A stretch of DNA of 43,338 nucleotides from a virus. A program made the position numbers and the translations under genes. Below, one piece after another: positions 2,963-25,568 of this stretch. How positions within the stretch are numbered: the first letter of the stretch is position 1; each line of letters begins with the position of its first letter. The DNA is taken from IMG/VR virus record IMGVR_UViG_3300044489_000054, positions 1 to 43,338 of that record; one strand, written 5' to 3'. Below the pieces are notes generated by a model. It saw only the letters and a program-made list of their open reading frames with translations. It was not told the DNA's origin and did not search any database.

Positions 2963-3994
2963 TTATGAACCGCCGAGAGCAGTAGCGTGTCGGATTACAA
3001 CCATGAAGTTCTGCTGCAGAATCTTCGTAACGAAAGTTGTATACCACGCGATACTGGCTCTCTGGTCCAACGGGTCTGCAGAACCAGCAGAACCAAAGTC
3101 CTTCTGGATCAAGCGCAGAGGTCGGGTCTTGAGCATTGTAGTATTGCTGTTAGTCATGCTATTAGTACTTGGAGCCTGCATACCTGATGGCATGTACTGA
3201 GCCAAACCGCCAATACCAAACGCACCCTTACCGATTACAACCGAGTAGAAAACGTCGACGGTGCCGCCGCTACCAACATCGGGAAGCTCATAAGCATTCG
3301 GCGAGACAAACAACTCACAACCGACTGCCTCACCCATGTAACCAGTAAAGTACGAATTGGATTTGCCACGCTCCTGGCTGTACTTCAAGATGGTCTGGAA
3401 AGTACTGTCATTATACAAATCGTATTCGGTATACGGGTGTATAATGACAGAGAACTTTCCACCATCCAGCGGACGAGCCTTATTAACCTTGAGCGTAGCA
3501 ACGGCCTCAAGCAGTTCAAGAGCAGTAAGTTTCATGGCGCTAGTGATGTCGCTGTTTGCAGCAGCAGTAGAAGCGTATTGAATTGTGGTGCCGGCAATGA
3601 TGACGTTACGAACGAGTTGGTCAAGACTATCACCAGCCTGCTCACCAAGAGCATCCGCAGCCTCAACCGCTACACGATCAATGCCCATCATTGCAAGTTT
3701 CTTGGTATAGCGAATGTAAGCGCCATACTCATCTACGGTAGCAGTCAGGTTAGACATGCTCATGTCCATTGATGCAGGAGTGCTGCCCTCAGTCAATGCC
3801 GTAGTAACAGCAGTGAAAGAGTTAAGAATACGCCAGTCAATGGTAGCACCAGCATGCTCGGGCAGAGCAGTAATAGGACTTACACCGCGCTGACCAAAAG
3901 CCAGGTGCAGAAAGTTAGGAGTTGCGCGATCCAGCAATTGCATTTCATAGAACGTTCGCTGCTGTGTAGTAAGAACACCAAAGGTGGAAGTCAT
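2963..3994 (-). CDS. Major capsid protein, N4-gp56 family
   Basis: 343 residues, the usual size for N4-gp56-type capsid subunits. The start follows GGAGGCTAAAG. The hallmark order of the family is visible: a short N-terminus, then a QLLDRATPNFLHLAFGQ stretch (about 18-35), a strand with IDWRILNSF, a LTEGSTPAS loop (about 66-75), then TATVDEYGAYIRYTKKLAMMGIDRVAVEA, in which the YGxYhxhTKxL segment is typical of this fold. It has an HK97-like fold by family knowledge. It is the shell-forming protein, made after scaffold and before decoration in the operon. Confidence is high for capsid and good for the N4-gp56 family. Confidence 0.9.
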   Translation of the reverse strand: MTSTFGVLTTQQRTFYEMQLLDRATPNFLHLAFGQRGVSPITALPEHAGATIDWRILNSFTAVTTALTEGSTPASMDMSMSNLTATVDEYGAYIRYTKKLAMMGIDRVAVEAADALGEQAGDSLDQLVRNVIIAGTTIQYASTAAANSDITSAMKLTALELLEAVATLKVNKARPLDGGKFSVIIHPYTEYDLYNDSTFQTILKYSQERGKSNSYFTGYMGEAVGCELFVSPNAYELPDVGSGGTVDVFYSVVIGKGAFGIGGLAQYMPSGMQAPSTNSMTNSNTTMLKTRPLRLIQKDFGSAGSADPLDQRASIAWYTTFVTKILQQNFMVVIRHATALGGS

Positions 3995-4017: not shown

Positions 4018-4665
4018 TTACCCGACAGATGGGAAGTCCTCCAATCTGACGTCGCCAAGTCTGATTCGATCCATTAATTCTGCACGTTCTTGCGCTGTCA
4101 TATTCCAGATACTCTTCTGTGCTCCCTGCGTTCCCTGCCCCCCGCCAGTTCCAACCTTTGGCGCATTGGTTCCAGGTTTAGCAGTTCCCTTCAGTGCAGC
4201 AACTTGCTTCCTTAGCGTACTGATTTCTGACTGCATGGTAGTCAGTACGCTGTGCTGCCAGTCAGCAGGATCATTACCAACTATCTTATCTGCAGGAACA
4301 AACTGGCTGTAGTATGAATACAGTTCATTAGCGTATCTTGTCTGTGCCAACTGTTGCTCTCGCACCTGAAGATCTCTAGCACGCTTATCCAACTCGTAAC
4401 GTGCTTTCTCTTCGTCATTCATGCTGGATGTTTCGTACTTCTCCAGCATCTGACGCATTTCTTCGTTGGCACGCGCTTGATCACTGTACGCATTCTGCAA
4501 CCAATTCATTCGCTGCTGATACTGGTCCTGCTGCTGTTGCTGCTGCGTTTGAGCCTGAGCCTGAGTATCTGGAGTGCTATCTACATTCTGTGCAGAATCC
4601 TGTGCAGGATCCGTAACTTGGGTGGAGGGTTCACCCTCTACACCACCGTTAACTAGATCAGGCAT
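4018..4665 (-). CDS. Putative capsid scaffold protein
   Basis: 215 residues, start behind GGGAGGTAACA. The sequence is acidic and Gln-rich at the N-terminus (residues about 15-60, with a poly-Gln run), then strongly helical with heptad-like Glu/Leu/Arg/Gln spacing (about 60-165), and has a short charged C-terminus (RAELMDRIRLGDVRLEDFP). This composition, and the position immediately upstream of the capsid gene in transcription order, match phage scaffold proteins that guide procapsid assembly. No protease domain is fused to it. The role is inferred from composition and synteny. Confidence 0.8.
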   Translation of the reverse strand: MPDLVNGGVEGEPSTQVTDPAQDSAQNVDSTPDTQAQAQTQQQQQQDQYQQRMNWLQNAYSDQARANEEMRQMLEKYETSSMNDEEKARYELDKRARDLQVREQQLAQTRYANELYSYYSQFVPADKIVGNDPADWQHSVLTTMQSEISTLRKQVAALKGTAKPGTNAPKVGTGGGQGTQGAQKSIWNMTAQERAELMDRIRLGDVRLEDFPSVG

Positions 4666-4676
4666 TGTTACCTCCC

Positions 4677-7600
4677 TTACTTTTCTAGTGCTGACATTTG
4701 TGCCAGCGTTGGATTAGTCAGCGGGTTCACAGAGACTTTAGAAGATGAACCCGCGGCCTCACGATGTTTGGCAAGTGCTTTCTTTGCCGTTTCAGTAGCC
4801 TTATCTTTCCATCCCCAATAGGCTATCAAGTACGCACCTACAGTCGTTGTCGTATTAGGAATTTGCTGTTTCATTAATGCACGTTGGGCATTCTTATCTT
4901 TATTTAGATCCCACCATTTATCGTTATACGCATGAACACCAGGCCATCTAACTTCCGCAGCCTGGTGAACGATAGTAGTAGCTGCTCGATCAACATCTTC
5001 TGCATCAGCGTAGTACTGTAGCAAGTCTGGATCGGAAATCATTTCTCTATTTAACCAATCCCAATATCCAAACAAGCCGGAGTTGGGTTGGTTAGGATTC
5101 TGTGTGCTGATAGCATATGCAATTGCAGCATCGTGTCCCTTTGTTTGTTCTGTCTCAAAGAATTTATCTTGCCACTTCTGTGCGCTTGGCCATTCCGTTT
5201 CGGAACGTTTATACAGAGCGGCTCTTTTTTCTTTTGCTCGCTTGATACCTTGAGCGATTTCTCCGGTAGGAGATGCTATCAATTCGGCAGCGTCCATCAC
5301 AGCGTATGTCAACGCTTGATAATCAGCAGGCTGCCATCCTGAAAGATCTCCAGCAGACTGATAGAACTTCTCTCGCATTACTGACGTGAATCCTAGTTTA
5401 TCAAGCAAGGCTGCACCTGATTTACCAGGTGGTACACGATTAAGTACATTCCACGCCAGCGATGATATACGTTGCTGCTCGGTATCATAGGCAAGCCATG
5501 CAGTAGATAGCCACGGATACTTTCCAAGAATCTGTGTTGCTGCTTCTTTAGGCAACATCGTCTTCTTTAAGTCTTGATATTCACGTCCTTGTTTTGCAAG
5601 TTCACTCTCCCAGCCTGCTCGTGGTGTTATTCGCAAGCCTAGAAACATCGAAGCCAGTGCGGGCAATCGTTGAGCCGACAAGGCCGACACTATTGCGTCT
5701 GCAAATGTTGGGCCACGTTGTGTAGCCGCAGCATATATTGCGTCGTCTGGGCTCAGAGAACCAAGCATCTGTGATGCTGCTAGTCTGCGTGTTGCACTTG
5801 CTACATTCCATTTAGTCCCTCCAACAAAAGGTTGCACGTTTCCTGTTCGTGGATCACGTGTCCACATCCAGGGCTCTACAACTTTCCCAGTTAGTGCAGC
5901 AAAGGAACGTGTTACTGGTGACAGGTATCCAGGTGTTCTTGCTCCTTCTCTGTCTCCTTGAAGAGCGCGTTCAGCCGCGTAAGCAAACATAAGCAGCGGA
6001 TGTACTGCTGGTCCATATCTGCCTATTGCTTGAATGGCTTTTCCAAACGCGCTTCTTTCTCGATCAGGATCCTCGAAGGATTCAAAGATATTTTGTACTG
6101 GAATAAAAGTAGATTCAAAATCCCAAAGAAGTTTTCCGTCAAAACCAGGTACTCCAGAAATCGCAATGTGGTTCTTTGCCCAGTCTGGAATATCAGGATC
6201 GTCTTTGTTCATTTGCTCTATTCCACGCCGCATACGCAGGTAGGCGTTAACAGCCCCAGGCGAACGCGCTAAACTCTGTGCCCAATTAGGAACCGCGCGT
6301 GTGTACCAGTACACCCACGGGAACGCTAACTGCAAGAGAATATCTGGCGTCCGGCGCATCTGGTAATCCAATAGCGCATGGTCACGAACCCGCTTTGCGT
6401 ATTTAGCCGCTGCAGCGTGGACATCGACGTGTCGTGATTGTAGTCTCTTAGTAAAGGTATTCAGCACATTATCCAGTGGTTCTCCAGCCTTACCTGCTTG
6501 TTCAAGAGATCTTGTTAGTGTAGTGGCTGGCATATCTTCTACTTCTTTAATCACACGCTCGAGAAGGTTAGTTGCTCTTACAGCCATATCAGTGTTTACG
6601 CTTACAGCACTAGGTGATGGTCCAGATGCCAGACCAGATTGCACAGCGCTAACAGCATTCTGCGCAACAACTGCTTCTGGCTTGCCTGATGCCATGACCT
6701 TTTGTGCGTGGGCTCTTACATATTCACGATACTCATTGGCTGCAACTACCTTACCTTCCCATTCCGGTTTGTTTACACAAGCAAATGGAACAAGGTCTAT
6801 GCTGCCATTTTTCTTTCGGACTGGATACATGGCATAAGGAATATCGCCTATCTTAAATTCCTTCATAGCCTGTACTGGCTTCGCGTAAACACGTGGTACA
6901 ACTTCGTCAGGTTTAACGGCATCAGGTTCAAGAATGTCGCCGGCTCGTGTCTCCAGCTTTCCTGGCGATTCGATGCTGGCTTTTACACCACCAGCGTCTC
7001 GGAGTTCCATTAGAACCTTGTCACGAGCGGCGCGATTCTTTTTCCATGTATCCGTCACGTCACCGATATCGTAAGTTAGCAGATTATCGAATACGCTTCG
7101 CACATCGTCAGGGAACTTTTCCATAGGGCCACGTCGATTGAATAGCGCACGATAAGCATCCGAGATCCAACGCTTCATCTTCTCGAATACGCCCAACAAT
7201 CCCTTGGTTGGAGCAAATCCTTCAAAGATATACATCTCAAATGCTTTCGCGAACTTCTCTTGATCGTTTACGTCCCATAGATTTCGTCTTCGTCCTACCC
7301 ACTTTTCGATAATTATCAGATCATCATTGCGTAGCATGGGTACTAGCATGTGTCCGGCTTCGTGCATAAGCGTAGAAGCATTGGCGTTCTCGAAACCTTT
7401 TAGTACACCAAGACCAGTCAGCGGATTAAGCGACCAAGAGCCAAAAACTTCCTTGCCTACTCTTTGAAAGGATGCTCTTTCCGCCATCTTTGCTATGCTT
7501 TCCAGGCCGCTGAGGTGCACAGGGGGTTTCTTTTCAAACCGAACATCTGAGATAAAACGCTCGTACCAAAGACGCCAATCCTCGCCATATGTAGAAGCCC

Positions 7601-10600
7601 ACGATTTAGCAATAGCATCGAAGATAGTCATTACGCCATCGCGCTGCTCAGGTGTAAGATTGAACACGTTCATTGCTCGATGAGCGAAATCCTCGCGCTT
7701 CAATCCACCAATGTACTTAGCTACTCGAATACTCTCTGTTTCGTTCTTGTTGATAATGTGGGTAACTTCCGACCAGTTCTTAACCTTCTGTAGTGGTACG
7801 CGCTTGTTATCTTTCAGTACAGCATATGAATCAATGGTAGCCATACGATTAATTTCACCCATGTGTGCAGGGTAATCTGAAATAAGATCCTTACTCTTGA
7901 AGGTTGCAATAGTTACATCATCTGTCATTCCCCATCTGTTGATAGCCTGAACAACATCAAAGGAAGGAAGTTTACTCTCTACATGGAACTGACCATTCGA
8001 TGTTTTAGTAATGAGAATAGCATCCTTGGGCTTAGTGTTTAGTTGTTTTGCTAGATCATTAGCATCTAAGTCTCCACCGATGTGAGCGATTGCATCCGCA
8101 GATTCATCGGCTGTTATCATCACGGACGCAGCATCATCTGGATGTGAAGCACCAATGAAGTGCCAGATCCTATCTTTGTCATTGCTTGAAACGATGAGAG
8201 TTGCCGCACCACCAACATTAGTTTCGAATCCTGTTGGTTGAGTGTGCTGCATATCGTAGAGCATGACAGAAGCATCTGGATCCACTCCAGCCTCGCGCAT
8301 ACGTGCAAATGTTTGCTTGATGCGCCCATCTGGAACATGCACTTCAATAGTGCCGTCTTCCAACTTTCGTATGATAGCGCTACGTCCGTTTGTAGAAGCA
8401 ATGATTTCTGAGACTTCCTTAAGTTCAGACTTCTGCAATATTCCAGTATCCAAGTTGAGTGTTGTCACCCAAGGCTCTGGCTTTTGAATATCATCACCGA
8501 GTTCAGTGACGGTAATCTTTGGCCGATCCATTCTGGGCGTTGTCGATTTGGGTTTGGATTTTGTTGGTGTTGGTGTTGGTGTTGGTGTTGGTGTTGGTGT
8601 TGGTGTTGGTGTAGGTGCCGCCTTCTTAGGACGTGGTCCAATCTGTGCCATAACATTTTCTTTGAGATCTTCCCTTGCAGCAGCTTCAAGTGCTTCATCA
8701 GAAACTGGTGGAGTAATTACTGTAGGAGCCACTTCTGGTGCAGGAGGTACTTCTGGTGCTTTTGGTCTAGTCTTAATAGCCTGAACTTCCATGCGTACCT
8801 TCTCGTCGACAAAGTCTTCGAGGTTTGTTACTCTATCACCCTGCATTCTAACAGGCGTTTTCTCTGGAACACCAGCACGTAGAAGTTTGGCTGCTTCTTC
8901 TAGTCTACCTTCTGCTCTAGATGCTTCATCAATGAATTGGTCAGGAGCAAATTCAAGAATTACCTTCTTGGTTCCATCCTGATTCCAGTAGATATGACCA
9001 ACTATGGTATTTTCTGCGGCTCTGATATTGGCAGAGCGAGAGAAAACGGTGCCAATGCTAGAAGTGTAGTGCGTAATGTATGCTAAGTGATCAGGAACCT
9101 CAGCATCAAGAGCACCACTCCAGTCAGAAATGGCAGCTGAACCATCAGGATTTAACCAATTTTGCACCATATTGAGTTCGTCAGGAACCAGACCTTGGCC
9201 ACCACCGCTAGGTAGGTTAATGTCTCCAAATAGTTCTTCTTGCCTGTAGTAGGAACCCTGGAATACTCCATTCCCCAGATCACCTAAAGTAGACGTGCGC
9301 TCAATCATAGGAATGTTTGCACTTTGTGTATATGTTCTCCAGATAACTGGTGTATTGCGATCAATCTTTCTACCAGCCAACTCAGTAAATAACTCCATTG
9401 TCTCTGTTCTATCCATTACGCCTGTTACCATGATTGGTTTATCCCCACGTTTTGATACTGTAACTACTCCAGACTTGCCTTTAGGATATGGATTATCCAA
9501 TGGAACTCTTCGTAGCCGCATAGAACCAGTGCCAGCTGATGATTGTAGATCCCAAGCCTCAGAACCAAAATCCTTAACCGTTGTATTACTACCAAGCATA
9601 CTCCATCGACGATGTCGCAGAGAGTTGCTTCCAGCAACTTCCTCTCCAGCCAAGAATCCTGGAGTCAGTCTAGTTGTGCGCCCTCTCTTAAACAGACCAT
9701 CATCAATAAGGATTACTTGGTCTGGGGCCATTTTTAGTTCTGCTGCTACTTTCCTTATTCCAACGAATGAGGAAAGTTCATGTGTAGCCACTATGTATGT
9801 ATCTCCAGATTTCACTAGAACCAGCGATGCTTTATTTGGAATTACAGTACCAGGAGCAACCTTGATCACTTCTCCTGTATCTTTAGTTACTATGTAGCGC
9901 TCCTGTTCACCAATTGGTTTGGACATGTAAGCCTTGACATCAGGATTGGACTCCAGATCCAGTACGTTGCTGTATCTAATATCCGAAGCAACTTGTTCTG
10001 CCTTACCAGAAACCTCACCAGTTGGTGTTTGCACAATGACTGGTGTATCAGGAGGAAGTTGCTCCAAAGCCTTGACTGTTGTTTCTGTAACCTGACCATC
10101 TGGAACAATAGTTCCATCAGGAAGTTTCAACCCTTCCATAACCTCAGCATCTTTAGGAAGTACTTCAACTGCTTTTCTTCCTGCTTCTGGTTTAGTAGTG
10201 GCTGCCTTTCTGCTTTTGACATCAATAGCAACACGCTGAACTTCTGTAGATACAGGAAGCGTAGTAGCCTCTGCAATATCTACAGGCGCATCACCTGCTC
10301 CAGCAAGATCGGCCAGAATAAATGGTGTTGTTTCTTTGGTGTCCAAGTTGGTTACAAGAACTGGAGTCTGCTTATTAAAACCGTAGTCCAGTAACTTGTC
10401 TGCTATAGGCTTATTGGAAAGGGGATTAGCGTTGTTAGTACGTATAACAAAATTTCCTTTCTGTCGGAACAATCCAAGAGACTTCTTCATGTCGGCAGTA
10501 AGAAGGACTGCCTTGGTAAGATCCAGTTCGTCATACGGAAGATAGAAATCAACCTCTCTGTTTGCAAGATTAAGAACAGGTTGTGCCGGAGTTACATCTA

Positions 10601-13600
10601 CAGCAACTACTGGCTGCTCAACTGGTAGATCTTTTACCTCTACAAGAGTATACGAAGTATCTTGACTTGGGGTTCTGGCATTTCTAAAATCCGCTTTAGC
10701 CTTAACTCCGTTATTCTTAAGCGCATTCTTTACTACCTCGTCGTCTGCTATAGATATATCAACGTTGTAAGTTATATTTTTTCCTTCCATGGAAAGACTT
10801 CCAGATGCTACAATCCTGTCTCCCTTTTCCGCAAAACTTGTATGTGCAATGCCTTCAGCAATCTTGTAATCCTTATAAGGAATAGCAACAATGTCTCCAC
10901 CTCTAGAAACAAAAAGCGCAGTTGGAATTCCTTGTGCTTGAAGGCCACTAAGAGTAGTCACGTTAACGTCATTGTGTGTCATAGCAATAAAGGAAATTGC
11001 GTGATCCTTCGGGGCACTAGTCTTTATTAGATCTCGTATATTGTGCGTAGTAACTACTCCATTGTGGAAGATCTGTATGCTTTTGTCTGTATTTAGTCCT
11101 CTAGCAACTGCAAGTTTAGCAGCGTCTTGCGGAGCAGTATTACCACGCGTGATTACAAAAGCACTGTCCTCATATAGATACATGTCCATAGGATCTTTAG
11201 AAGCAATGAATGTTTGTTCCTTTGAAAGTTCCACATCGAAATCGCCAACAGTAATCTGCTTGCCTTTTACTCTTGCTATATCACCCGCGTCCTTGGTTAA
11301 GAAACGCTCCAGTGGGCTGCTGCTTGCTGTTTCGGCTAAAAGATTGTCATACTTGAAAGTCAGACTGCCAAAGACAGGAGACTGGAATGTAACATATTCA
11401 GTGCCTTCAGGAATAGCATCTTTTAAGAAATTAGAAAACCCATGTGGCGTATTGAGATAGTCAGCATTACTACTAACTAGATAGGCGTTAGGATCCGTAC
11501 TTCTAATAATTACTAGATGTTGTTGTGGTTGGAAGGACATGAAGGTTGTAGCACCAGATATGGATGAAGGATCGAATGAGCCTTCGAATGTGGAAGATAC
11601 TAGTTGTCTAGTTGTTGGATTGTAGACTGCTACGGCCTGCTCGCCTTTGTTAAGAGTAACCCAGCCATCCTTGAATCCAGTCATACCTTTAGCAAGCATT
11701 TCACTAGGATCTTCACCAAGCAGCGTGTTCAATCTTCCGATAACAACATCACTTACCGGTGCACCTTTTTTACTTCTCCAGACAGTAATAACGTCATCAC
11801 TATATCCCATTTCACGAAGTGCTTGAAGAGCGTCCATGCGCAAGTCTGTAGGCGCTTCAATAAATACACCATGCATTGTTTGCCATCCAAGATAACTGTT
11901 CTTAGTACCCGCAGATGCTGCATGAGCAAGAGACTCAGTTGACTCTACAAAGGAGCGAGTGTAGTAATCGAACGAGAAGTAGCATTGTGCTTTTCCTGCC
12001 TCACCAGCCCTAAGAATATCCGTAATTGCTTCTGCACGCTCAACGGGATTATGCAGAAAACTTTTTTCTCCAGGCATAATTACCTGTGTCTTTACTGGTG
12101 GATACTTATGTGTTCCGGCTTCTGCTGCACGAGTTCTCATAGACAGAGGATCTAGTTCAGGAGCACGCACTTCTGAAGCCAGATCTGGATCCCGTTTTAT
12201 GCGTCTAGCAAGTTCTTTTGCTGCCTCATCATCCCTACTTCCGAACGCTCCAATGAACTGCCTCAACTTAATAAGGGGCATTTCGGGGTTGTCTGATGCT
12301 GTACGCTTTGCGAACTCACCTAGTGATATGCCTAGCCCTAGCATTTCCGAATCAGGATCTGCTCCCATCTTGATAAGTTTCTTTGCAACACGTATCCTTG
12401 CTTCGTCCTGTTGTCTGGCGTTAAGTTTTATTGGCTCAAAGTCCAAACTGATCATTACCTTCTTTTTAGAGTACCTAACAGAAACCACAGGCTGAGATTC
12501 TGATGCTGCTAACTGTTTGTAGTTACGTTGAAAAGCCATCTGATACAGCGACTCTGCGTCAGACTCGTGGGATCCAATAATGAAATAGTCATGCGCAGTT
12601 TTAGGATATTCCGGATTGTAATCCAGGTAGATTAGTTGATGAAAACCGATAGGATCATCCAAGACAGTAGCAGGAAGTTTATCTACTGCTGCGTGCAAAG
12701 CAAATGATTGATTGACAGGAGCCTCAATTCCCTTAGGTAGTTCACCTGCATTACCAAGTTCGTGTGCCCATTCAATCTTAACTCCTCGCTCACCAGGAGA
12801 AGCCATCTGTGCAATGGTTCCCTTTTCCATAATGAAAGCATATTCGTCCGTTGTAGATGCGGAGTACCAAATCATAGTCATATTTGGAATTGGTTGGTTT
12901 TTCTGTACGTAACCTTGCGCTATTTGAAGTGCAACATTTCTACTATAGGTTCCATGCTTATCGTATGGACCAACGAAGAAGTATCCAGCATCTGTAGCAA
13001 AGCATGCTATTCTAGCGCCTGGTGCTTTAGCGTTACGATTTAGTTCAGCAACGTCCTTTGCAATATCAACAGCAAGACGTGCAAAGTTAACTTCCTTACC
13101 TGGAGGAAGAAACTCTTTCTTTGTATCACCGAGTCTCTGAATGTAACTAAGATCACCAATCCACTGACCGGTATTAACCGCGTGTATGATTGGCTCATCC
13201 AGGTATTCCTCTCCCCACGCTATTTTCCGTATTTCCTCAGGACCAGTCTGGTACAGTTCCTTACCAGCACGCCAGTCATCAATGCTCATCACATTACTAG
13301 AGGGGAAAGGATTTATCGTCACATCGAAATTAGAGAAGTCAGCACCCTCATGATAGCCTCTAGCCATGTGGTTCTCGTAGAGGCTACGAAGTTGTGCTGC
13401 ATCCTTAATTTCAGGAAGATCATTTAGACCATGTCTATAGTGGTTAAGTAGTTGCACTCTTTCCTCAATGGTCAGGTCCTTGAAATATTTTTTAAACATC
13501 TTAGCCGCGTCTGCTTCTACCTGTCTTTGCAGCGGAACTAGGTACGGAGTTTGCCAGTCAATCCCTTCCCCGTAGTATTTCTCCATGTCGTATGGCCATC

Positions 13601-16600
13601 GTGCAAGATCATACTGCTGCTGACCCTTAGAGATACCAGCAGCCCGCGCTTCTTTCATAATGTGTCTGTTGACTAAAACAGCGTCAGGAAGATCATCAAG
13701 TTCTTTCTTTGCAAACCAGGCATAGCCTCCTGACTCGCCAATAATGCGTCCATATTCCATATCCATCTTCGCGTATTGCTTTTGGTACTCAGTCAGAAGC
13801 CTGTCTGAGTATTCTTTAGCAGTGATTAATCCAGCCTGGTGATCAGCAAAGAGTTGTGTCTGTGATACACGAACCCGCTTGATAGCGTTTACGTACTCCT
13901 CTTCCACCTGCTGCACTGCCTGTCGCATCTTAGATTGATCCTTCAATCCAGTAGCCAGAGCAGCATGCGCGTTAGCGCGAGAGAGTTGAAGATCATGCTC
14001 TATCTTACTAAGCGCCTTCACCAGATTCTCAGCAACCGTAACTTTTTCCTTCTTAGGTACTGTAGCATCTTTACGAACAACTTCACGAAGTTGCTTGCTT
14101 GCTTCTCCAACTACAGTTCCAGGAACTGGAGCCGGAGGAGACGTAACCTGCTTTGCAACTTCCAGCGGCCTCGTCATGTATACCTGTTCGAGATCTCGTA
14201 GACGCTTGACGAACTCTTCCCTGTTCTTTGATTTAGACGCAGCAGTCTTAATAAGTTGATGTAGTTCAGCAAGCCCGCTATCAGTAATGTCCTTAGCCAA
14301 TTCCTCAGATAGAATATCCCAAGGCTTGACTCTAATCGCGTCATCACCAAGCAATCGAACATTGCCACCGTGGCTTGATACAAACTCAGCAATCAACTCA
14401 CGTATCTGTGCAATGTTATCGGCACCCAAGAAGCCAGCCTGCTCGATCTTTCCCTTGATGATTCCTATTTCCTTGGGAGTAAGCAGTCTTGCTATTTCGT
14501 CTGGAAGAGTTACGTCTATCTGTGATCTACGCCACAGCGTTCTTGTAGCACCATCAAATGCTTGCTGCACGATAGTTCGTGATGCTTGCTGCTCAAATTT
14601 CTGTGCAGCATACATCGAGAATGTAGTAAGCCCAGGCTTGGTCATAAACGTTTCTCCAGCACCAATACCCTGCGTTGCTGCACGAACGTCATAACCAAGC
14701 ACCAACTTGTTCAAAGCAGCGCGACGACTGCTGATGAATGGAGAGTACCCATCAACCATGATATGCGCAACGTTGTCTGTAAAGTTTCTAATCGCGTAGC
14801 CCAGATTCATGCCCATGTATAGACGAGCGAATACGTTATCAAGAGGACGTCTTTTTTCAACAATGGCTTTAGCCCCACGCAGGATAATCCCTTTCTCGTA
14901 CTCGGCTACTGGTATCATTTCACTAATAGCAAACCTTGCTTTGTTGTACCAAGCATGTGCTACCTCAGTGGCTGTATGGGCTTCATCCGACATCTTAAGT
15001 GCTCTAGTTAGTGCAACAAGTTTTCCATCCTTGTCAGTTGCAATCTTCTTCATAAGTACTGCAGCACGTCGACCGTTTCGTGAAGATGGTGTCATTCCGT
15101 AACCACGATTGAAGAGTTCCCGACCAGCAGCCCTGACCTTTGCAGGATCATCGTCTGCTAGTTTAATCCACAACGAAGTTACTTCACCAATCTCGTCGTC
15201 AAGCCTTCGTGCGAATTCAGTCTCGAATTCCGGAGTACCTACTAGATTTTTCCAGTTAGGATCTGTTTTCATGCTGCCAAGAATAGCACGATTTGCTGTA
15301 CCGTTTACGATCTCTACAGCCTGAGCCGCTTCTTCCGCAACCATGTGTCTCATAGAATCGGTTGTATACGGAGCAACAATAGCAGCGCCCTTACCAAAGA
15401 TATTCTCGGCTTCCTTAACCTGACCAGCACGAGAACTCAGCATTGCTATATCGTTAGCAACCGTTTCTGTAGGAAGAAGATGATCGAACAATGCTTGCTC
15501 ATCTATCTTCTTCCCAACACGTAGCGCCTCACCAGCGTCTGTAAGTTGTGGAAGATTAACCATTCTATTTGCTTTTGCAAGATCCATGACCTTTATGACT
15601 TTGTCGAATGCCACGTCTACTATGTTCAAAGGATCAAACACTGTTTGGCCAATCATTTCTTTCCACCAAACAGAATGCTTCATCAAGACTTCTTGTGCCT
15701 CTTCGTCAGTGAAATCACCCATAGTGTTCAGTTCTCTGTAGGCATTACCAGCAGCCTCAGGTCCAGAAAACTGAATACCACGAGAATACACCCAGGCACG
15801 CTCTTGCTGCGGTGTATTTACTCCATAGAGTTCTCGCTCGTGTCCATAGAACGCATCACCAAGCAAGGTCTCTACAACCTCTGCAGGAGTATTTATAAGT
15901 TCCAATGAAGCCGAAGCCGTTCTACCAAAGTCAGAGGTAGTAATGTTAGTTATGATATTGTCGAAGGAGTTCCACGGAAGATCCGTACCAGTTTGGCCCC
16001 AACTGCTCCAAGCATTTCTTGCTTTACTCCATCGCGCGTTTACGTGTTCATCCACATAGTTAATAAAGGACTCGCCCTTTTTCCAACCCATAGGAGCATC
16101 AGTCTCAGGGTTATAAGGATCAGGCTTTACCTCTGGAGATACCGTTTCCAGATCCTGAGCGGCTGATTGCATATCCTTATCCGCTTGCTTCTTCTGCTCT
16201 TCCGCAACTGGTCCAGTAATTGCTGGAGGAGCCAGACCAAAGAAGTCAGCGATTGAAGATGTGAGATTGGAAAAAAAGTCGCCCTGTGCCACCTCCGCCT
16301 CGCTGGTTTGCACAGGGGGTTTCTTTTCCACGGTGGTGCTTTCGATGCTTGTCTCTGGCGATTCGAGTTCGTAATTAACACCGGAGGAGTAATCTTCACT
16401 AGGTGGCGTAGACTCTCTTCCGGATACTTGATCAAGAACTTCCTTCTCTGTCATTTCCATACTGGAATCGCCACGTTGGCCAGATGGTTTATGGAATGGT
16501 TGGTTAATATCTTCCCATCCCGCAGGACGCTCCCACGGTTGCCACATTTTGAAGCCTAACCTATCCGGATGTGTGGGAGGCAAGGCTTGTGGCGTTGGTT

Positions 16601-16718
16601 TATAATTTCCAGTGTATTCATTTCTTGGTGTAGGTGCAGGTGGCTGTGGTACACCACCTGCACCATAGACCGGCTTCTGTATTCTAGGAGCCGGAGGGGC
16701 GGGTGGATTCTTGCTCAT
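4677..16718 (-). CDS. Giant 4013-residue polyvalent virion-type protein with zincin-like HEAGH motif
   Basis: This single uninterrupted frame fills 12 kb. The start follows GAGGG. Visible parts: proline-rich N-terminus (1-180) holding a complete dispersed repeat (EKKPPV at 131-136, AQGDFF at 144-149); an all-helical region with a hydrophobic segment near 635-655 (MNLGYAIRNFTDNVAHIM); a coiled-coil region (about 880-1000); many degenerate alpha/beta modules (about 1230-2955); a Pro-Thr linker near 2700-2718; a second EKKPPV at 3062-3067; HEAGH at 3119-3123, a zinc metalloprotease signature; and an aromatic hydrophobic helix near 3466 (FPWVYWYTRAVPNW) in the C-terminal part. The layout resembles large polyvalent phage proteins that are packaged and injected. 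I see no single-subunit RNA polymerase motifs. Injection and protease roles are inference. Confidence 0.85.
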   Translation of the reverse strand: MSKNPPAPPAPRIQKPVYGAGGVPQPPAPTPRNEYTGNYKPTPQALPPTHPDRLGFKMWQPWERPAGWEDINQPFHKPSGQRGDSSMEMTEKEVLDQVSGRESTPPSEDYSSGVNYELESPETSIESTTVEKKPPVQTSEAEVAQGDFFSNLTSSIADFFGLAPPAITGPVAEEQKKQADKDMQSAAQDLETVSPEVKPDPYNPETDAPMGWKKGESFINYVDEHVNARWSKARNAWSSWGQTGTDLPWNSFDNIITNITTSDFGRTASASLELINTPAEVVETLLGDAFYGHERELYGVNTPQQERAWVYSRGIQFSGPEAAGNAYRELNTMGDFTDEEAQEVLMKHSVWWKEMIGQTVFDPLNIVDVAFDKVIKVMDLAKANRMVNLPQLTDAGEALRVGKKIDEQALFDHLLPTETVANDIAMLSSRAGQVKEAENIFGKGAAIVAPYTTDSMRHMVAEEAAQAVEIVNGTANRAILGSMKTDPNWKNLVGTPEFETEFARRLDDEIGEVTSLWIKLADDDPAKVRAAGRELFNRGYGMTPSSRNGRRAAVLMKKIATDKDGKLVALTRALKMSDEAHTATEVAHAWYNKARFAISEMIPVAEYEKGIILRGAKAIVEKRRPLDNVFARLYMGMNLGYAIRNFTDNVAHIMVDGYSPFISSRRAALNKLVLGYDVRAATQGIGAGETFMTKPGLTTFSMYAAQKFEQQASRTIVQQAFDGATRTLWRRSQIDVTLPDEIARLLTPKEIGIIKGKIEQAGFLGADNIAQIRELIAEFVSSHGGNVRLLGDDAIRVKPWDILSEELAKDITDSGLAELHQLIKTAASKSKNREEFVKRLRDLEQVYMTRPLEVAKQVTSPPAPVPGTVVGEASKQLREVVRKDATVPKKEKVTVAENLVKALSKIEHDLQLSRANAHAALATGLKDQSKMRQAVQQVEEEYVNAIKRVRVSQTQLFADHQAGLITAKEYSDRLLTEYQKQYAKMDMEYGRIIGESGGYAWFAKKELDDLPDAVLVNRHIMKEARAAGISKGQQQYDLARWPYDMEKYYGEGIDWQTPYLVPLQRQVEADAAKMFKKYFKDLTIEERVQLLNHYRHGLNDLPEIKDAAQLRSLYENHMARGYHEGADFSNFDVTINPFPSSNVMSIDDWRAGKELYQTGPEEIRKIAWGEEYLDEPIIHAVNTGQWIGDLSYIQRLGDTKKEFLPPGKEVNFARLAVDIAKDVAELNRNAKAPGARIACFATDAGYFFVGPYDKHGTYSRNVALQIAQGYVQKNQPIPNMTMIWYSASTTDEYAFIMEKGTIAQMASPGERGVKIEWAHELGNAGELPKGIEAPVNQSFALHAAVDKLPATVLDDPIGFHQLIYLDYNPEYPKTAHDYFIIGSHESDAESLYQMAFQRNYKQLAASESQPVVSVRYSKKKVMISLDFEPIKLNARQQDEARIRVAKKLIKMGADPDSEMLGLGISLGEFAKRTASDNPEMPLIKLRQFIGAFGSRDDEAAKELARRIKRDPDLASEVRAPELDPLSMRTRAAEAGTHKYPPVKTQVIMPGEKSFLHNPVERAEAITDILRAGEAGKAQCYFSFDYYTRSFVESTESLAHAASAGTKNSYLGWQTMHGVFIEAPTDLRMDALQALREMGYSDDVITVWRSKKGAPVSDVVIGRLNTLLGEDPSEMLAKGMTGFKDGWVTLNKGEQAVAVYNPTTRQLVSSTFEGSFDPSSISGATTFMSFQPQQHLVIIRSTDPNAYLVSSNADYLNTPHGFSNFLKDAIPEGTEYVTFQSPVFGSLTFKYDNLLAETASSSPLERFLTKDAGDIARVKGKQITVGDFDVELSKEQTFIASKDPMDMYLYEDSAFVITRGNTAPQDAAKLAVARGLNTDKSIQIFHNGVVTTHNIRDLIKTSAPKDHAISFIAMTHNDVNVTTLSGLQAQGIPTALFVSRGGDIVAIPYKDYKIAEGIAHTSFAEKGDRIVASGSLSMEGKNITYNVDISIADDEVVKNALKNNGVKAKADFRNARTPSQDTSYTLVEVKDLPVEQPVVAVDVTPAQPVLNLANREVDFYLPYDELDLTKAVLLTADMKKSLGLFRQKGNFVIRTNNANPLSNKPIADKLLDYGFNKQTPVLVTNLDTKETTPFILADLAGAGDAPVDIAEATTLPVSTEVQRVAIDVKSRKAATTKPEAGRKAVEVLPKDAEVMEGLKLPDGTIVPDGQVTETTVKALEQLPPDTPVIVQTPTGEVSGKAEQVASDIRYSNVLDLESNPDVKAYMSKPIGEQERYIVTKDTGEVIKVAPGTVIPNKASLVLVKSGDTYIVATHELSSFVGIRKVAAELKMAPDQVILIDDGLFKRGRTTRLTPGFLAGEEVAGSNSLRHRRWSMLGSNTTVKDFGSEAWDLQSSAGTGSMRLRRVPLDNPYPKGKSGVVTVSKRGDKPIMVTGVMDRTETMELFTELAGRKIDRNTPVIWRTYTQSANIPMIERTSTLGDLGNGVFQGSYYRQEELFGDINLPSGGGQGLVPDELNMVQNWLNPDGSAAISDWSGALDAEVPDHLAYITHYTSSIGTVFSRSANIRAAENTIVGHIYWNQDGTKKVILEFAPDQFIDEASRAEGRLEEAAKLLRAGVPEKTPVRMQGDRVTNLEDFVDEKVRMEVQAIKTRPKAPEVPPAPEVAPTVITPPVSDEALEAAAREDLKENVMAQIGPRPKKAAPTPTPTPTPTPTPTPTPTKSKPKSTTPRMDRPKITVTELGDDIQKPEPWVTTLNLDTGILQKSELKEVSEIIASTNGRSAIIRKLEDGTIEVHVPDGRIKQTFARMREAGVDPDASVMLYDMQHTQPTGFETNVGGAATLIVSSNDKDRIWHFIGASHPDDAASVMITADESADAIAHIGGDLDANDLAKQLNTKPKDAILITKTSNGQFHVESKLPSFDVVQAINRWGMTDDVTIATFKSKDLISDYPAHMGEINRMATIDSYAVLKDNKRVPLQKVKNWSEVTHIINKNETESIRVAKYIGGLKREDFAHRAMNVFNLTPEQRDGVMTIFDAIAKSWASTYGEDWRLWYERFISDVRFEKKPPVHLSGLESIAKMAERASFQRVGKEVFGSWSLNPLTGLGVLKGFENANASTLMHEAGHMLVPMLRNDDLIIIEKWVGRRRNLWDVNDQEKFAKAFEMYIFEGFAPTKGLLGVFEKMKRWISDAYRALFNRRGPMEKFPDDVRSVFDNLLTYDIGDVTDTWKKNRAARDKVLMELRDAGGVKASIESPGKLETRAGDILEPDAVKPDEVVPRVYAKPVQAMKEFKIGDIPYAMYPVRKKNGSIDLVPFACVNKPEWEGKVVAANEYREYVRAHAQKVMASGKPEAVVAQNAVSAVQSGLASGPSPSAVSVNTDMAVRATNLLERVIKEVEDMPATTLTRSLEQAGKAGEPLDNVLNTFTKRLQSRHVDVHAAAAKYAKRVRDHALLDYQMRRTPDILLQLAFPWVYWYTRAVPNWAQSLARSPGAVNAYLRMRRGIEQMNKDDPDIPDWAKNHIAISGVPGFDGKLLWDFESTFIPVQNIFESFEDPDRERSAFGKAIQAIGRYGPAVHPLLMFAYAAERALQGDREGARTPGYLSPVTRSFAALTGKVVEPWMWTRDPRTGNVQPFVGGTKWNVASATRRLAASQMLGSLSPDDAIYAAATQRGPTFADAIVSALSAQRLPALASMFLGLRITPRAGWESELAKQGREYQDLKKTMLPKEAATQILGKYPWLSTAWLAYDTEQQRISSLAWNVLNRVPPGKSGAALLDKLGFTSVMREKFYQSAGDLSGWQPADYQALTYAVMDAAELIASPTGEIAQGIKRAKEKRAALYKRSETEWPSAQKWQDKFFETEQTKGHDAAIAYAISTQNPNQPNSGLFGYWDWLNREMISDPDLLQYYADAEDVDRAATTIVHQAAEVRWPGVHAYNDKWWDLNKDKNAQRALMKQQIPNTTTTVGAYLIAYWGWKDKATETAKKALAKHREAAGSSSKVSVNPLTNPTLAQMSALEK
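7515..7535. repeat. Dispersed repeat, copy R2 (single arm) inside the giant gene
   Basis: Plus-strand GTGCACAGGGGGTTTCTTTT is the one-arm form of the family. It is read in frame by the minus-strand giant gene as EKKPPVH at residues 3062-3068, in a linker about 50 residues before the HEAGH motif. The same peptide is produced by copies R3 and R11. Confidence 0.85.
8564..8617. repeat. Tandem TTGGTG hexamer tract encoding a Pro-Thr linker
   Basis: Eight perfect TTGGTG units (8564-8611) and one variant unit TAGGTG encode alternating Pro-Thr on the minus strand in the giant protein, a stiff extended linker before the last alpha/beta modules. Tracts like this change length by slippage in whole hexamers, which keeps the frame. 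Confidence 0.9.
16269..16329. repeat. Dispersed palindromic repeat, copy R3 (both arms) in the giant gene N-terminus
   Basis: Arms at 16269-16289 (GGAAAAAAAGTCGCCCTGTGC) and 16310-16329 are inverted to each other around a 20-base spacer. The element is read in frame on the minus strand: the first arm gives EKKPPVQ and the second gives AQGDFFS (residues 131-150). This is the clearest example of the whole palindrome sitting inside a coding sequence. Confidence 0.9.
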
Positions 16719-16881
16719 AATACCCTCGTAAAATGAAGGATGGAAGTGATACCCGCTCTGTTTCTACCTGTTGAACTTCTGCACCACGCTCGTGCTCACG
16801 CTGTGCAGCCAATATATTCGATAGCGTACGCTTCTGACTTTGCAGTGCAGAAGCGTACGCATTACGAATTACGTTAGCCAC
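16684..16881 (-). CDS. Small helical protein of the head operon
   Basis: 65 residues with a GTG start. It overlaps the upstream gene by 13 bp and the giant gene by 35 bp, so translational coupling is likely; its own ribosome site is weak. Residues 1-45 are a Gln/Arg/Ala-rich amphipathic helix (ALQSQKRTLSNILAAQREHE), and the tail is polar. The family is not recognised. The dense overlaps on both sides are the main reason to call it real. It may be a small virion or assembly component. Confidence 0.6.
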   Translation of the reverse strand: MANVIRNAYASALQSQKRTLSNILAAQREHERGAEVQQVETERVSLPSFILRGYYEQESTRPSGS

Positions 16882-17825
16882 AGGTTTCTACCGACACCAC
16901 CACGAGTAGTCGAGGAACCAAATGGTTTGGTTATTGCACGACGATAACCAACCGTTCCTATTTCACTCGGACTGGTACTGCGTAGTTGCGGATTCACTAG
17001 ATTCTGCGCTAGCGCTAGAACAGGCGCCAGCGAATTATTGTTCAGAACTTGGTTCTCCAACGTCTCCAGATGTGCAGCAGATGCAGCCTTAGCAGCACGT
17101 GTTTTACGTTGGAAACCCAAATCCTCATCCAATGTTGGCATTGCTTGATTTGCTGTATTCAAGTATTCTCTAAGCCATGTAAGAGGAGCCATCTGTTTAT
17201 TTACCGCTTCAGTTTGTACTGCTGTAGGAGCACCAGTTCCATAAACCATTTCTGCTAGTTTCCTGGGAGTAAGTTGATCCATTGCATACCACAACCTGTT
17301 TCCCTGAAGCAAGTACTGGTTAGGATTTAGTTCTTGCGGTGAAGCACTAGCCGAAGAATATCCAGCCTGCGGTTGTGAAATGCGTTGACTACCAGGAACA
17401 CCAGGTGGCTTTTGTACGTTAGCATATGAACCAAACGCTGTGGGATTTTGCTGTGCAAGCCATTGTCCCATTTGCCACTGGGTGCCAGGATCCATATAAC
17501 GCAGCAGTGTATTTACTGCTGTTTGTAGAACATTAGCAGATGAAGCATCTTTAGGATTGTATTGCTTATGCCAGGAAGGTAGAGACGCAACAAAACCTTG
17601 TGTGTTTGGCTGTATTCTGTTTGCATTCTGCCCACCGCTATATATCTTCAAGCCTCTCCGACGAGGAACGTATCCAGTATTTACCATATTTACTGGAGCA
17701 GGCGGTGGGTTTGGAAGCGGTGGTGAAGGGGGCATAGGTGGTGGTAATGGAGTTGGTGGTGTTGAAGGTGTTGAAGGTGCTGGAAGCCACGGATTAGGAT
17801 ATATTCTAGGATCTTCTAGAGCCAT
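16869..17825 (-). CDS. Proline-rich structural-module protein
   Basis: 318 residues, start behind AGGGGAGGG. Residues about 8-45 are an extreme Pro/Ser/Thr stretch, followed by a more normal region (about 50-318) with helices such as LLRYMDPGTQWQMGQWLAQ, and a small-residue C-terminal tail. It lies between the giant gene and another Pro/Gly-rich gene, with a 1-bp gap to the latter. No known domain is recognised. Pro-rich low-complexity leaders recur in three adjacent genes here, including the giant protein, which suggests that the three products act together, perhaps as internal virion proteins. Confidence 0.75.
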   Translation of the reverse strand: MALEDPRIYPNPWLPAPSTPSTPPTPLPPPMPPSPPLPNPPPAPVNMVNTGYVPRRRGLKIYSGGQNANRIQPNTQGFVASLPSWHKQYNPKDASSANVLQTAVNTLLRYMDPGTQWQMGQWLAQQNPTAFGSYANVQKPPGVPGSQRISQPQAGYSSASASPQELNPNQYLLQGNRLWYAMDQLTPRKLAEMVYGTGAPTAVQTEAVNKQMAPLTWLREYLNTANQAMPTLDEDLGFQRKTRAAKAASAAHLETLENQVLNNNSLAPVLALAQNLVNPQLRSTSPSEIGTVGYRRAITKPFGSSTTRGGVGRNLWLT

Positions 17826-17826
17826 A

Positions 17827-19806
17827 CTAGTATCCCTCCCCTATCGGTGGAATGTATCCACCACTATTGCTCCAGTTGTCTGAAGAAGTTAGACCCGCTG
17901 CATTAGATGCTTCTTGTTCTTGTTGTCGTTTACGGCGATAACTACCACCACCACGCCACGGATTGTACCAAGGCTCACCCCAACCTTGAGGACCCCATCT
18001 ATCTGCAAAACCACGTCCCCAACCTGCTCCGAGTGGTGCTCCGTAGAAATAAGGATTATCCCACGGATAAGAACCAAGGCCAAATCTATCTTCGTACCAT
18101 TGGCCCTTGTAATCAGCAGCAGTTGGAGCACGACCATTTTGCATCATAAATTGTTGGCCCCACTGTAGCGCCTTGATGTTTTCACGTAGCACTTCTGTAG
18201 GATGGAAACTTCCAACCCACGGTGGTACACCGCCATGATCTCGTGCGTAATCAAGAACCCATTGATCGAATTCTGCTTGTGATCCCTGCCACATTCCGCC
18301 AACTTGATTCCAGTCTACTTCTTCTCCAAGTGCATCAAACTCAGGAGCCCACGGACTTTCTCCGGTGTAGCCTGTTCCGGTGGTTGTTCCGGTGGTTGTT
18401 CCGGTGGTTGTTCCGGTAGTTCCTGCTCCGGTACCTGCTCCGGTTTCGGTTGTTCCTGTTGTTTCGGTGCCTGTTGGTGTTGGTGTTGCTGACGTTGTTA
18501 GCGGAGACCACGATGTTACTCCATATGGATAACCAGGTGGTAGTCCTGTTGTTGATGCTGGCGGCGCGGGCGGCATGAGCACAGGGGGATTTTTTTCCAA
18601 AGTAGGATATGTAGGAAGTGCTGAGTAAGGTGGAGGAAGGGAGCCTGGTACAGCAGAGGTTAGAGGATTATATTCTACTGGAGCAGGCCTGTTTTCACTT
18701 AGAGGATTATATGCTGTTGGAGGAAGCGAGCCTGGTACAGCAGAAGTTAGAGGATTATACGGAATGGGTTGCCCAGGTAGCATTACTCCAGGCGGTGTGT
18801 TGGAATAGTCAACTCCCTCTTCATAACCTGGTAGTGCTTTTACTCCTTGTGGTTCTGGCCACCAATTCATTCCCATAGGGTACTGTTCTTGCAATTCCGA
18901 AGTGGAAACGCCACCAGGATATTGTGCTTGTACTCCTGCTGGGATGCTTCCTCGTCTGCTAGTTGTGCGTTCTGTTCTGCTTGTTGGAGGCACTGGTTGG
19001 TCATATCGTCCTTCATACATTCTTGATAGAACATCCTCGGGAGGTAGTTCTACTTTCTTCTCACCTGGGCCTTGTCCTAGCGCTTCGAAGTAGTTTTGTG
19101 TGGCTGGAAACACTGCTGGAACTTCTGGAACAAAGAAACGATACATTGCTTCGGACATTCCTAGCGGATAGCCTGTTCCAGCAGGAATTGAAGCAGCAGG
19201 TGATGGAACCATTTCCGGAATGAAGCGGCCACCAGGCCCAGTATCAGGTGCTGGAGTTCCATATCCAGGTGGAGTTGCTTGTGTTGGTTGTGCTAGGTAT
19301 TCTTGATAGGTCGGGTAGTCATGAATCATATCTTCCCACGGCATCCTAGGTGGTACTCGTCCACCGGAAATGGGAAGATAATAGCGATAGGTTTTACGCT
19401 CTTCCTCAGGAATAGGAGGACCTTGAAGATCGTAAAGAGCACGTGCAGTATATTTAGCAAAAGCATCCTGCTGTGCTTTACGATCTTTCTTCTCTGCCTC
19501 AGTTTCAGTAGCAGACTTTCTGTTCTTGTCCTTCGCGCCTCTCTCAGCAGCAGAGGGTTCCGCTCTCTTGTATCTTTCTGGTCGTGTGGGTTGTGGTGCT
19601 GGTTGCTTCGGCGCTCGCTGTGAAGTCAGTCCTTCGTCTCTACCTCTACCACCACCACGATCTGGTCGTGTTGGAATAACTGGTGGTTTAGGTGCTACTA
19701 CAATAACTGTCGTAGGTGGCTGTTGTGGAACACCGTAGTCTGCAGGGTTATATGTGATTGGTCTTGGTGGCTGTGGAATTGAACCACCATCGGAAATCAC
19801 AGCCAT
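17827..19806 (-). CDS. Large Pro/Gly/Thr-rich low-complexity virion-type protein
   Basis: 659 residues. I place the start at 19806 (MAVISDGG) because ATAGGAGGTATCAC stands directly before it; a start 30 bp upstream lacks this. The N-terminal 500 residues are Pro/Gly-rich and carry repeated peptides (YNPLTSAVPGSLPP occurs more than once) and a Thr/Gly minisatellite (18372-18420). Copy R4 of the dispersed repeat gives EKNPPV at 404-409. The C-terminal 170 residues are rich in Trp and Tyr and globular (for example VDWNQVGGMWQGSQAEFDQW). It is probably a virion protein by context; the function is unknown. Confidence 0.75.
   Translation of the reverse strand: MAVISDGGSIPQPPRPITYNPADYGVPQQPPTTVIVVAPKPPVIPTRPDRGGGRGRDEGLTSQRAPKQPAPQPTRPERYKRAEPSAAERGAKDKNRKSATETEAEKKDRKAQQDAFAKYTARALYDLQGPPIPEEERKTYRYYLPISGGRVPPRMPWEDMIHDYPTYQEYLAQPTQATPPGYGTPAPDTGPGGRFIPEMVPSPAASIPAGTGYPLGMSEAMYRFFVPEVPAVFPATQNYFEALGQGPGEKKVELPPEDVLSRMYEGRYDQPVPPTSRTERTTSRRGSIPAGVQAQYPGGVSTSELQEQYPMGMNWWPEPQGVKALPGYEEGVDYSNTPPGVMLPGQPIPYNPLTSAVPGSLPPTAYNPLSENRPAPVEYNPLTSAVPGSLPPPYSALPTYPTLEKNPPVLMPPAPPASTTGLPPGYPYGVTSWSPLTTSATPTPTGTETTGTTETGAGTGAGTTGTTTGTTTGTTTGTGYTGESPWAPEFDALGEEVDWNQVGGMWQGSQAEFDQWVLDYARDHGGVPPWVGSFHPTEVLRENIKALQWGQQFMMQNGRAPTAADYKGQWYEDRFGLGSYPWDNPYFYGAPLGAGWGRGFADRWGPQGWGEPWYNPWRGGGSYRRKRQQEQEASNAAGLTSSDNWSNSGGYIPPIGEGY
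18372..18420. repeat. 12-bp minisatellite in the Pro/Gly-rich gene
   Basis: About four copies of GTTCCGGTGGTT in tandem on the plus strand encode a Thr/Gly repeat on the minus strand. The last copy is degenerate. It is a candidate length-variable region by slippage. Confidence 0.8.
18579..18599. repeat. Dispersed repeat, copy R4 (single arm)
   Basis: GCACAGGGGGATTTTTTTCC is read on the minus strand in frame as EKNPPV (residues 404-409 of the Pro/Gly-rich protein). It is flanked by proline-rich sequence. Confidence 0.85.
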
Positions 19807-19816
19807 GTGATACCTC

Positions 19817-21691
19817 CTATTCGGGTGGCGGACCACCCATTCTTACGTTCTCTGGAGAGAACATTCCAGTTTCATTCGTTACAGATCCGTCATTTTGTGG
19901 CATTGGCTCGTTCCCTGCCATTGCTTGTTCAAGTCCCATTCCTATATTTGGCATGCTAGGTGCCCCACTACCAGCACCACCTGCCTGTTGCATCAGGACT
20001 TTTCCAAGTTGCGCCTCTACTATAGGCAAGTATGGACTCTTCTGTTCCTTAAGAACATCAATAAGAGCCATAAGTTGCACCATAGGATCGCGCATAGCAG
20101 TTTCTTCCATGACAGTTTGGATTTCCTCTTCAGGCTGAGCAATGCCAAAGTAATGCTCCAAGATGTAACGCATGCTAACTGGAGGCTTCGGAAGAGAAGC
20201 AAGTTGTGCACCAACAACAGCAAGACGCTGCTCGTCACTAGCCTGCTTAGGTTTGACAAACGTGTCAACAACGAGTGCCTCCGTTTCTCTTCCAGCCAAC
20301 ATAGCAGAGAATGATTTGCCTTTTACTTGCGTGGTTACTGCTATGTGAGTGCTGTAAGAAAACTCCTGCAGCATCTGAAACACCATATCGCCAACTTTGC
20401 TGTAGAAGAGTTCCAAGTTCCCACGTGGCGTATCCATTCTCAAAGTGTCAGCACCGATAAGTTGCGACAGGCCATATCCTGACATACGTGCAGATGTTTG
20501 TCCGAACATAGCCTCTGAGAATGAACTCTCTGACATTTCCTTCTCTAGATTCTCTCGTACCTTCCAGACATCTGGAGGATTTCCTGGCCACTGTGGAAAC
20601 TCAACACGCTCATTAGGATCATTCATCTGCAATATCTTGCCCCAGGCACCTTCAATGTTCATTGGCGTAGCGCCACGATGCACAGGAACAAGATTACTTA
20701 GCATATCAACAATCCGCATGATGCGGGAATTAAGATACTCAGTACGTTCCAGCGAGTAGATCATGGGAAATAGCATTGGAATTTTTTGCATATCAACTTC
20801 GTCAAACATCCCTTGCTTGTAGACAGAGAATACGTAAGGAATGAATGGATAGATAAGAGTCTTCCGTGGAATGACTACGTGTTCGTCGTAGGTTACCATG
20901 TAGTTTACGGAGCCGTCGTAATCATATCCCCACCACTCAATGTATGGAGCAACTCTATCTTCTACAGGAGGAAGAGGCTCATTTACTTTCTGGTTTATTG
21001 GAGGCGGAGGAATTACAGCGCCTTCAATATCTCTCCATTCTCTGACTACACTAGAGTAAGTTCTATTTTCTACCTGAACCAACTCGGAGAATGGCGAGTC
21101 GAATGTACTTGGGCCTATTGGATAGAGGTTACGTATTGGAATAATTGATAGTGTGATGGGAACCAAGTTACGTGGGTATGTTGCAACTGCCCAGTATTGT
21201 CCGTCTTCTTGTTCTTTTGTCTCCATGACAGGATCAGGTGCTCTATGATCCCACAGTATCTTCACCGCAGCAGAACCATGCAGCACCGTGTTGTGTGCAA
21301 CGAGGTTATACAGATTCTGTTCCTGTCGTCTAGAGTTTGCACGCCACAGTCCTGCAAGAAAAATCTCTGCACGGGATGCTACCTTGCTCGTTTCTGTACT
21401 GCCACCTGGACACGTTACCGAGTATTGCGGTGGATACCCACCCAAAACTGCTGTTGCAATATCTACAGTATTGTGGCCTCTTGGTGATGCGCTCCAGTAC
21501 TCTCCATGGACTTTGTTACGCCACGAACTATCATCAGAAAGATAGCCTGTCTTTCTTGCTCTAGACATGGCATAGATTTCGTCCATGAGACCAACAAGTG
21601 CATCGCGACGACGAAATACATTACGTGCATAGTTCAGTCTTGCAGTAACATCTCCTACCGTATCCGGCATTCCGGACATGTTACTTGCCAT
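19817..21691 (-). CDS. Portal protein
   Basis: 624 residues, a typical portal length. The start follows GAGGGAGC. The N-terminal part has the usual charged helices ([20 protein letters not shown]) and a DDSSWRNK segment. The middle part is a beta-rich clip/wing region, then a long helical segment ([27 protein letters not shown]) like that of phage portals, followed by acidic Gln-rich helices and a low-complexity C-terminal tail. It forms the DNA entry/exit ring at the capsid vertex and is the docking point for TerL. Its position next to the terminase genes agrees. Its start overlaps the 59-residue gene by 11 bp. Confidence 0.85.
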
Positions 21692-25509: not shown

Positions 25510-25535
25510 CACATAGCAGCATAGCACGCCAACGC

Positions 25536-25568
25536 AAGGCCACCAGACTAGCACAGTCTGGTGGCCTT
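25536..25568. terminator. Hairpin A after the first early gene
   Basis: Perfect 14-bp stem (25536-25549 with 25555-25568) around the loop AGCAC, followed by TCGCTTT. It is a strong hairpin but has only a weak T-run, so it may be a pause, processing or mRNA-stability element rather than a strict terminator. Hairpin B repeats its core. Confidence 0.55.

Follow-up and report, generated by a model that had tools for sequence, protein, structure and literature searches.

The window analysed here, i.e. the whole stretch of viral DNA that was examined, is IMG/VR virus record IMGVR_UViG_3300044489_000054, positions 1 to 43,338. In minus-strand order, the virion genes start with those for a candidate small terminase, the large terminase (TerL), a 105-aa protein, the portal, a 669-aa protein (p669) and a 318-aa protein (p318), which are followed by one giant gene. 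After the giant gene come the genes for the scaffold, the N4-gp56-type capsid, proteins of 137, 228 and 364 aa and a 671-aa protein, and the order ends with a 1,116-aa tail-tip/fibre protein and then a SpoIID-domain protein. The opposite strand carries helicase, primase-like and UDG-PolA genes. The giant gene is located between the portal-side genes and the scaffold and capsid genes, as a sequence-only reading of the window had stated, and the N4-gp56-type capsid named in that reading was recovered with a strong family match (Table 1). The adjoining p669 and p318 genes (window 16869-19836) encode proteins without family matches, which are likely partners of the giant protein. A defence-family scan gave no match.

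Table 1. Features of the giant gene and its neighbours, in window coordinates
Feature	Position	Strand	Remarks
Large terminase	22177..23925	minus	PHROG 38
Portal protein	19817..21691	minus	PHROG 156; 1 Cys
p669, Pro-rich Cys-free neighbour, candidate co-ejected partner	17827..19836	minus	
p318, Pro-rich Cys-free neighbour, candidate co-ejected partner	16869..17825	minus	Relatives have a similar small ORF here
Giant gene	4677..16718	minus	ATG start, 4,013 aa (4,013 codons), 3 Cys
Pro-rich N-terminal tail, residues 1-215	16074..16718	minus	15% Pro
N-core, matched residues 353-761	14436..15662	minus	Common to relatives
Variable middle, residues 1235-2958, candidate cargo	7845..13016	minus	About 12 degenerate bb-a-bb stretches
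(Pro-Thr)9 linker, residues 2702-2719	8562..8615	minus	
Zincin-type protease domain, residues 3102-3215	7074..7415	minus	PHROG 9880 E 1.6e-12
C-core first part, residues 3378-3554	6057..6587	minus	RDxALLxY motif
C-core last part, residues 3832-3993	4740..5225	minus	
Scaffolding protein	4018..4665	minus	PHROG 172, weak; position
Major capsid protein, N4-gp56 family	2963..3994	minus	TIGR04387 E 8e-57

The giant gene is a single frame that is open throughout, as previously described, while 50 shuffled versions of this 12-kb stretch gave no open frame longer than 195 codons. Moreover, codon-position GC was uneven along the entire ORF. The proline-rich start (16 Pro in 60 residues), the Pro-Thr linker and the HEAGH motif (residues 3119-3123; 7350-7364) noted in the sequence-only reading were all found again. 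The hydrophobic segments that it listed are present but do not reach transmembrane level (Kyte-Doolittle, 1.35 for the best 19-mer).

Relatives of the giant protein were collected from two seeds. BLAST of pieces of the protein led to the HEAGH region in giant podovirus proteins, e.g. those of CP2 and AF (PHROG 9880); the second seed was the C-terminal region, which was matched in a protein of 2,156 aa from a Manatee Spring podovirus with the same gene order (UOF79210; Podoviridae sp. ctptF532, MW202608). The seed alignments drew 257 (the best 80 of 257 were used) and 21-30 related viral contigs. In all-against-all comparisons, a conserved N-core of ~800 aa and a conserved C-core of ~680 aa flanked a variable middle, which may include a zincin. 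The C-core HMM matched the window protein at E 7.6e-26 (best shuffle 0.034), and in the C-core the window protein matched its closest relative, L114, at E 8e-29. The N-core was detected by hmmsearch at E 2.8e-7 compared to 0.36 for the best of 100 shuffles, by profile-profile comparison (hhalign) at 98.6% compared to 0.4% for the reversed control, and by two collinear BLAST matches to L114; by these sequence measures, the N-core match is weaker than the C-core match but sound. Moreover, the relatives with identifiable flanks repeat the order TerL-portal-small Pro-rich ORF-giant-scaffold-capsid. The window gene has the C-core, the collinear N-core and the slot between portal and scaffold/capsid by which the family is recognised. 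Judged by its sequence, the giant protein is a member of an unnamed family of giant phage proteins of 1.8-4.0 kaa from metagenomic contigs. UOF79210, annotated as 'hypothetical protein', shares the slot, the N-core and the C-core and is Cys-free; however, it is half the length of the window protein and lacks a matching zincin or module array.

Among 50,697 phage records searched, there was no cultured relative with the cores, and neither core was matched in Pfam, PHROGs or NCBIfam (window protein) or in Pfam (relatives). LPD38, which we took to be the name for the C-terminal domain, was dropped, as no such match was obtained when the window protein and nine relatives were scanned with Pfam. 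Sequence searches of solved structures with the zincin and the C-core gave no credible match. Finally, Foldseek comparisons to viral models gave matches to other 'large polyvalent protein' and ART-PolyVal proteins that are consistent but weak, with low TM.

In an alignment of 37 sequences of the zincin domain, the two H and the E of the motif as well as a downstream E were invariant. The region was predicted as helices at a pLDDT of about 90, and in multi-domain models its fold matched no solved fold. The zincin is the only effector-type domain recognised in the window protein by Pfam, PHROGs and NCBIfam. By contrast, relatives with the same cores carry ART-PolyVal (E 5e-26) and ddrB-ParB (E 2e-16 and 5e-27) domains between the cores, a GGDEF domain is found in L126, and in L114 an SLT transglycosylase follows the C-core. 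With such relatives, the window protein is probably a phage-type polyvalent protein. Domains of this kind were listed for polyvalent proteins by Iyer et al. 2017 (PMC5512222), who predicted that phage polyvalent proteins are packaged and injected and that the zincin is a processing protease. The window protein resembles those proteins in being a single giant polypeptide in the portal-terminase neighbourhood with a zincin as hub domain; it differs in that the zincin alone was recognised, whereas the class is marked by two or more unrelated effector domains in one chain. Proteins of phrog_9880, i.e. Xanthomonas phage CP2 gp25 and Pseudomonas phage AF gp16, have the same zincin domain, are giant and Cys-free, and adjoin annotated internal virion proteins; however, they have no N-core or C-core match, and their gene follows the tail genes. 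Separately, the zincin-bearing ORF of L072, with 4,443 aa and 2 Cys, exceeds the window protein in length.

For the middle of the window protein (about residues 1150-3050), no relative was found. About twelve strand-strand-helix-strand-strand stretches were picked out in it by eye. In a leave-one-out HMM analysis, only 2-3 of 10 hand-picked segments had low shuffle counts (<=14/500), and these statistics flatter the modules because the segments were chosen by eye. The predicted fold of residues 2757-3000, made without an alignment for this part, had similar bb-a-bb runs in two modules at low to middling pLDDT, and the modules were absent from all relatives in which they were sought. Thus, of the 'many repeated modules' in the sequence-only reading, a similar predicted fold in two modules and marginal sequence support remain, and we consider repetition plausible but weak. 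Likenesses of the module at ~2759-2827 to PrgH ring-building, ribosomal and BON-type (OsmY, DolP) domains reached a Z of 6 at most, below a meaningful level, and were discarded.

Of the 4,013 residues of the window protein, three are Cys (at 1239, 1579 and 3314), none of which lies in the matched core segments; measured against the Cys rate of the other proteins in its virion cluster, this is a depletion at P 5e-5. Among the relatives, 26 of 28 have no Cys, and the 72,178 residues of all 28 include 11 Cys, ten of which belong to L098; because the relatives are not mutually independent, these numbers are given as counts without a pooled P value. TerL and portal of the relatives' loci contain 0.52% Cys. 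The small ORF between portal and giant gene is Cys-free in most loci, and in the window p669 and p318 have 0 Cys in 987 residues. Relatives L136, L137 and L138, all Cys-free, are from MAGs, two of Anaerolineae and one of Planctomycetota; this binning is a hint at the host that is too indirect to name one.

The same depletion is seen in proteins known to be ejected. Eight of the nine ejection proteins of N4 (gp50, gp51 and gp52), T7 (gp15 and gp16) and P22 (gp7, gp16 and gp20) have zero Cys, the ninth, T7 gp14, has one, and the portals, terminases and tail proteins of T7, P22 and N4 contain 0.26-1.3% Cys. JC1 gp69, a 4,515-aa protein with zero Cys, was detected in purified podovirus virions by mass spectrometry (PMC9144972). 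The three Dar-type proteins of P1 (DarA, DarB and DdrB), which has a long contractile tail and packages them in the virion according to the literature, are Cys-poor but not Cys-free. The absence of Cys is an empirical property of the T7, P22 and N4 sets rather than a textbook criterion, and zero Cys by itself is no proof of ejection because the major capsid protein of N4 is also Cys-free. We found no paper that states this pattern for ejection proteins in a literature search that covered few subscription journals. The Cys depletion is new evidence for ejection, as it matches that of proteins known to be ejected.

Profiles of the N-core and C-core gave nothing significant against the ejection proteins of T7, P22 and N4; however, these three sets are mutually unlike in sequence, and a sequence match is therefore a weak criterion. 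T7 gp16 resembles the family as a Cys-free ejection protein with an endolysin domain, comparable to the SLT transglycosylase of L114, but has 1,318 aa and no significant sequence match. Of the DarB-like pair JC1 gp69 and Bcep22 gp75 (Lessievirus), JC1 gp69 is likewise a giant Cys-free podovirus virion protein, but there is no significant core match and the annotation is DarB-like antirestriction protein. With about 3,500 aa in N4 gp50 and 4,515 aa in JC1 gp69, the size of the window protein is not unprecedented.

In total, we consider it probable that the giant protein is an ejection (internal virion) protein of a short-tailed phage that is built as a phage-type polyvalent protein. The polyvalent domains of the relatives, the conserved slot from portal through giant gene to scaffold and the Cys depletion support the sequence-only reading that such a protein is packaged and injected, and presence in the virion and delivery would follow from them. 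The virion cluster gave no match to a tape measure or tail tube, an absent match being no proof, and it is solely from these absent matches that we infer a short tail. In the mechanism that we propose, the giant protein would be made together with portal and scaffold and enter the procapsid around the portal, where its Pro-rich tail and the neighbouring Pro-rich proteins without Cys are candidates for docking or as partners. At infection, it would thread unfolded through portal and tail and refold in the envelope or the cytoplasm; the virion RNA polymerase of N4 must similarly pass a tail narrower than its own fold (PMC12633501). Delivery would be the task of the helical N- and C-cores, and the middle would be a cargo slot exchanged between phages, filled here with a long array of small alpha/beta stretches and the zincin. 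This conduit role of the cores is an analogy, because fold searches, made for the C-core, matched no solved structure. The zincin probably cuts the giant protein into working pieces, either in the head or after delivery.

The portal-scaffold interval is also the usual place of MuF-type and core proteins, and a scaffold-side operon would suit a morphogenesis protein of the head interior or the portal vertex that remains in the capsid and is not ejected. We regard such a protein as unlikely because there was no MuF match, the Cys content resembles that of ejected proteins and not that of most portals and terminases, and the SLT, ART, ParB and GGDEF domains of the relatives require a target in the host. 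Host-directed domains would equally suit a polyvalent effector or toxin that is made in the infected cell and never packaged, as a late gene need not be structural; however, the slot inside the head operon is conserved in divergent loci and Cys is depleted over the whole length, which makes an unpackaged effector quite improbable. Even less probable is a tail tape-measure protein of a long-tailed phage. The protein is long, partly helical and encoded by a single gene, no other tape measure was recognised, and the relative L014 marginally matches a tape-measure family (E 0.008), but the gene is upstream of scaffold and capsid instead of between tail tube and tip, no tail-tube genes were recognised, the middle is Pro-rich and beta-containing, and the syntenic relative was deposited as Podoviridae.

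The N4-gp56 capsid had raised the question of an RNA polymerase. N4 gp50, the virion RNA polymerase, has about 3,500 aa, is Cys-free and ejected and has an HExxH domain, and in size, HExxH domain and few or no Cys the window protein is similar. However, there is no significant sequence match between the two proteins, and the N4 mini-polymerase was matched best, at E 0.03 over a local stretch, in the N-core, which is without support. In agreement with the sequence-only reading, no RNA polymerase was detectable in the window protein in Pfam, PHROGs and NCBIfam, and we give an N4-type polymerase very little credence. Finally, the modular make-up of the giant protein could suggest several genes fused in assembly, a possibility that we consider negligible because contigs from dataset 3300044490, a second IMG/VR assembly, jointly span the gene (IMGVR_UViG_3300044490_000021, referred to as G001, 100% identical to the window over 15490-3122; IMGVR_UViG_3300044490_000426, 99.99% identical over 26717-15364) and thus repeat its junctions, unless both assemblies share one error, and because the relatives hold both cores within one ORF.

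Giant ejected proteins of N4-like and Bcep22-like phages and polyvalent proteins as a class are already known; new here is a family, so far only from metagenomes, that has no name yet and combines conserved ends of its own with a fixed slot among the genes and an interior that can be exchanged. The conserved cores, the fixed slot and the Cys depletion are points for specialists to follow. We tentatively suggest, as a generalisation that could well prove wrong, that proteins threaded through the portal by short-tailed phages are selected to lack Cys over their full length whatever their origin, so that freedom from Cys would mark unknown ejected cargo; the family would then be a Cys-excluding delivery chassis with a swappable slot, which here holds an array of small alpha/beta modules, 1,700 residues long and unlike any known effector. 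As a sequence test of little cost, Cys depletion could single out ejected proteins among unannotated phage proteins, and it raises a physical question: does passage through the portal or an oxidising periplasm forbid thiols?

G001 runs 21.9 kb beyond the left end of the window (G001 1-21886) and rejoins it at window 37846, which implies a circle of about 59.7 kb. The 5.49-kb overlap of the records is identical for 5.33 kb, after which the final 163 bases of the window hold 17 differences; these are an assembly-end artefact or strain variation. A terminase-based search for close relatives gave the same phage only. Outside the window, a uracil-DNA glycosylase (PF03167, E 8e-18) is fused ahead of a family A DNA polymerase that includes an exonuclease domain (L010:9779-12000, plus strand). 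The 1,116-aa tail-tip/fibre protein (PF09327; L011:5141-8491, minus strand), also outside the window, has an N-terminal part weakly like DUF559 nuclease-like proteins (E 0.04), and the 149-aa SpoIID-domain protein beside it (PF08486, E 2.7e-12; L011:4416-4865, minus strand) is a candidate for an unusual phage cell-wall enzyme or cofactor. Finally, between the divergent gene blocks of the window, two identical 35-bp copies of a near-perfect hairpin lie 52 bp apart (25534-25568 and 25586-25620) and are followed by (CTGGTG)8 at 25640-25687.
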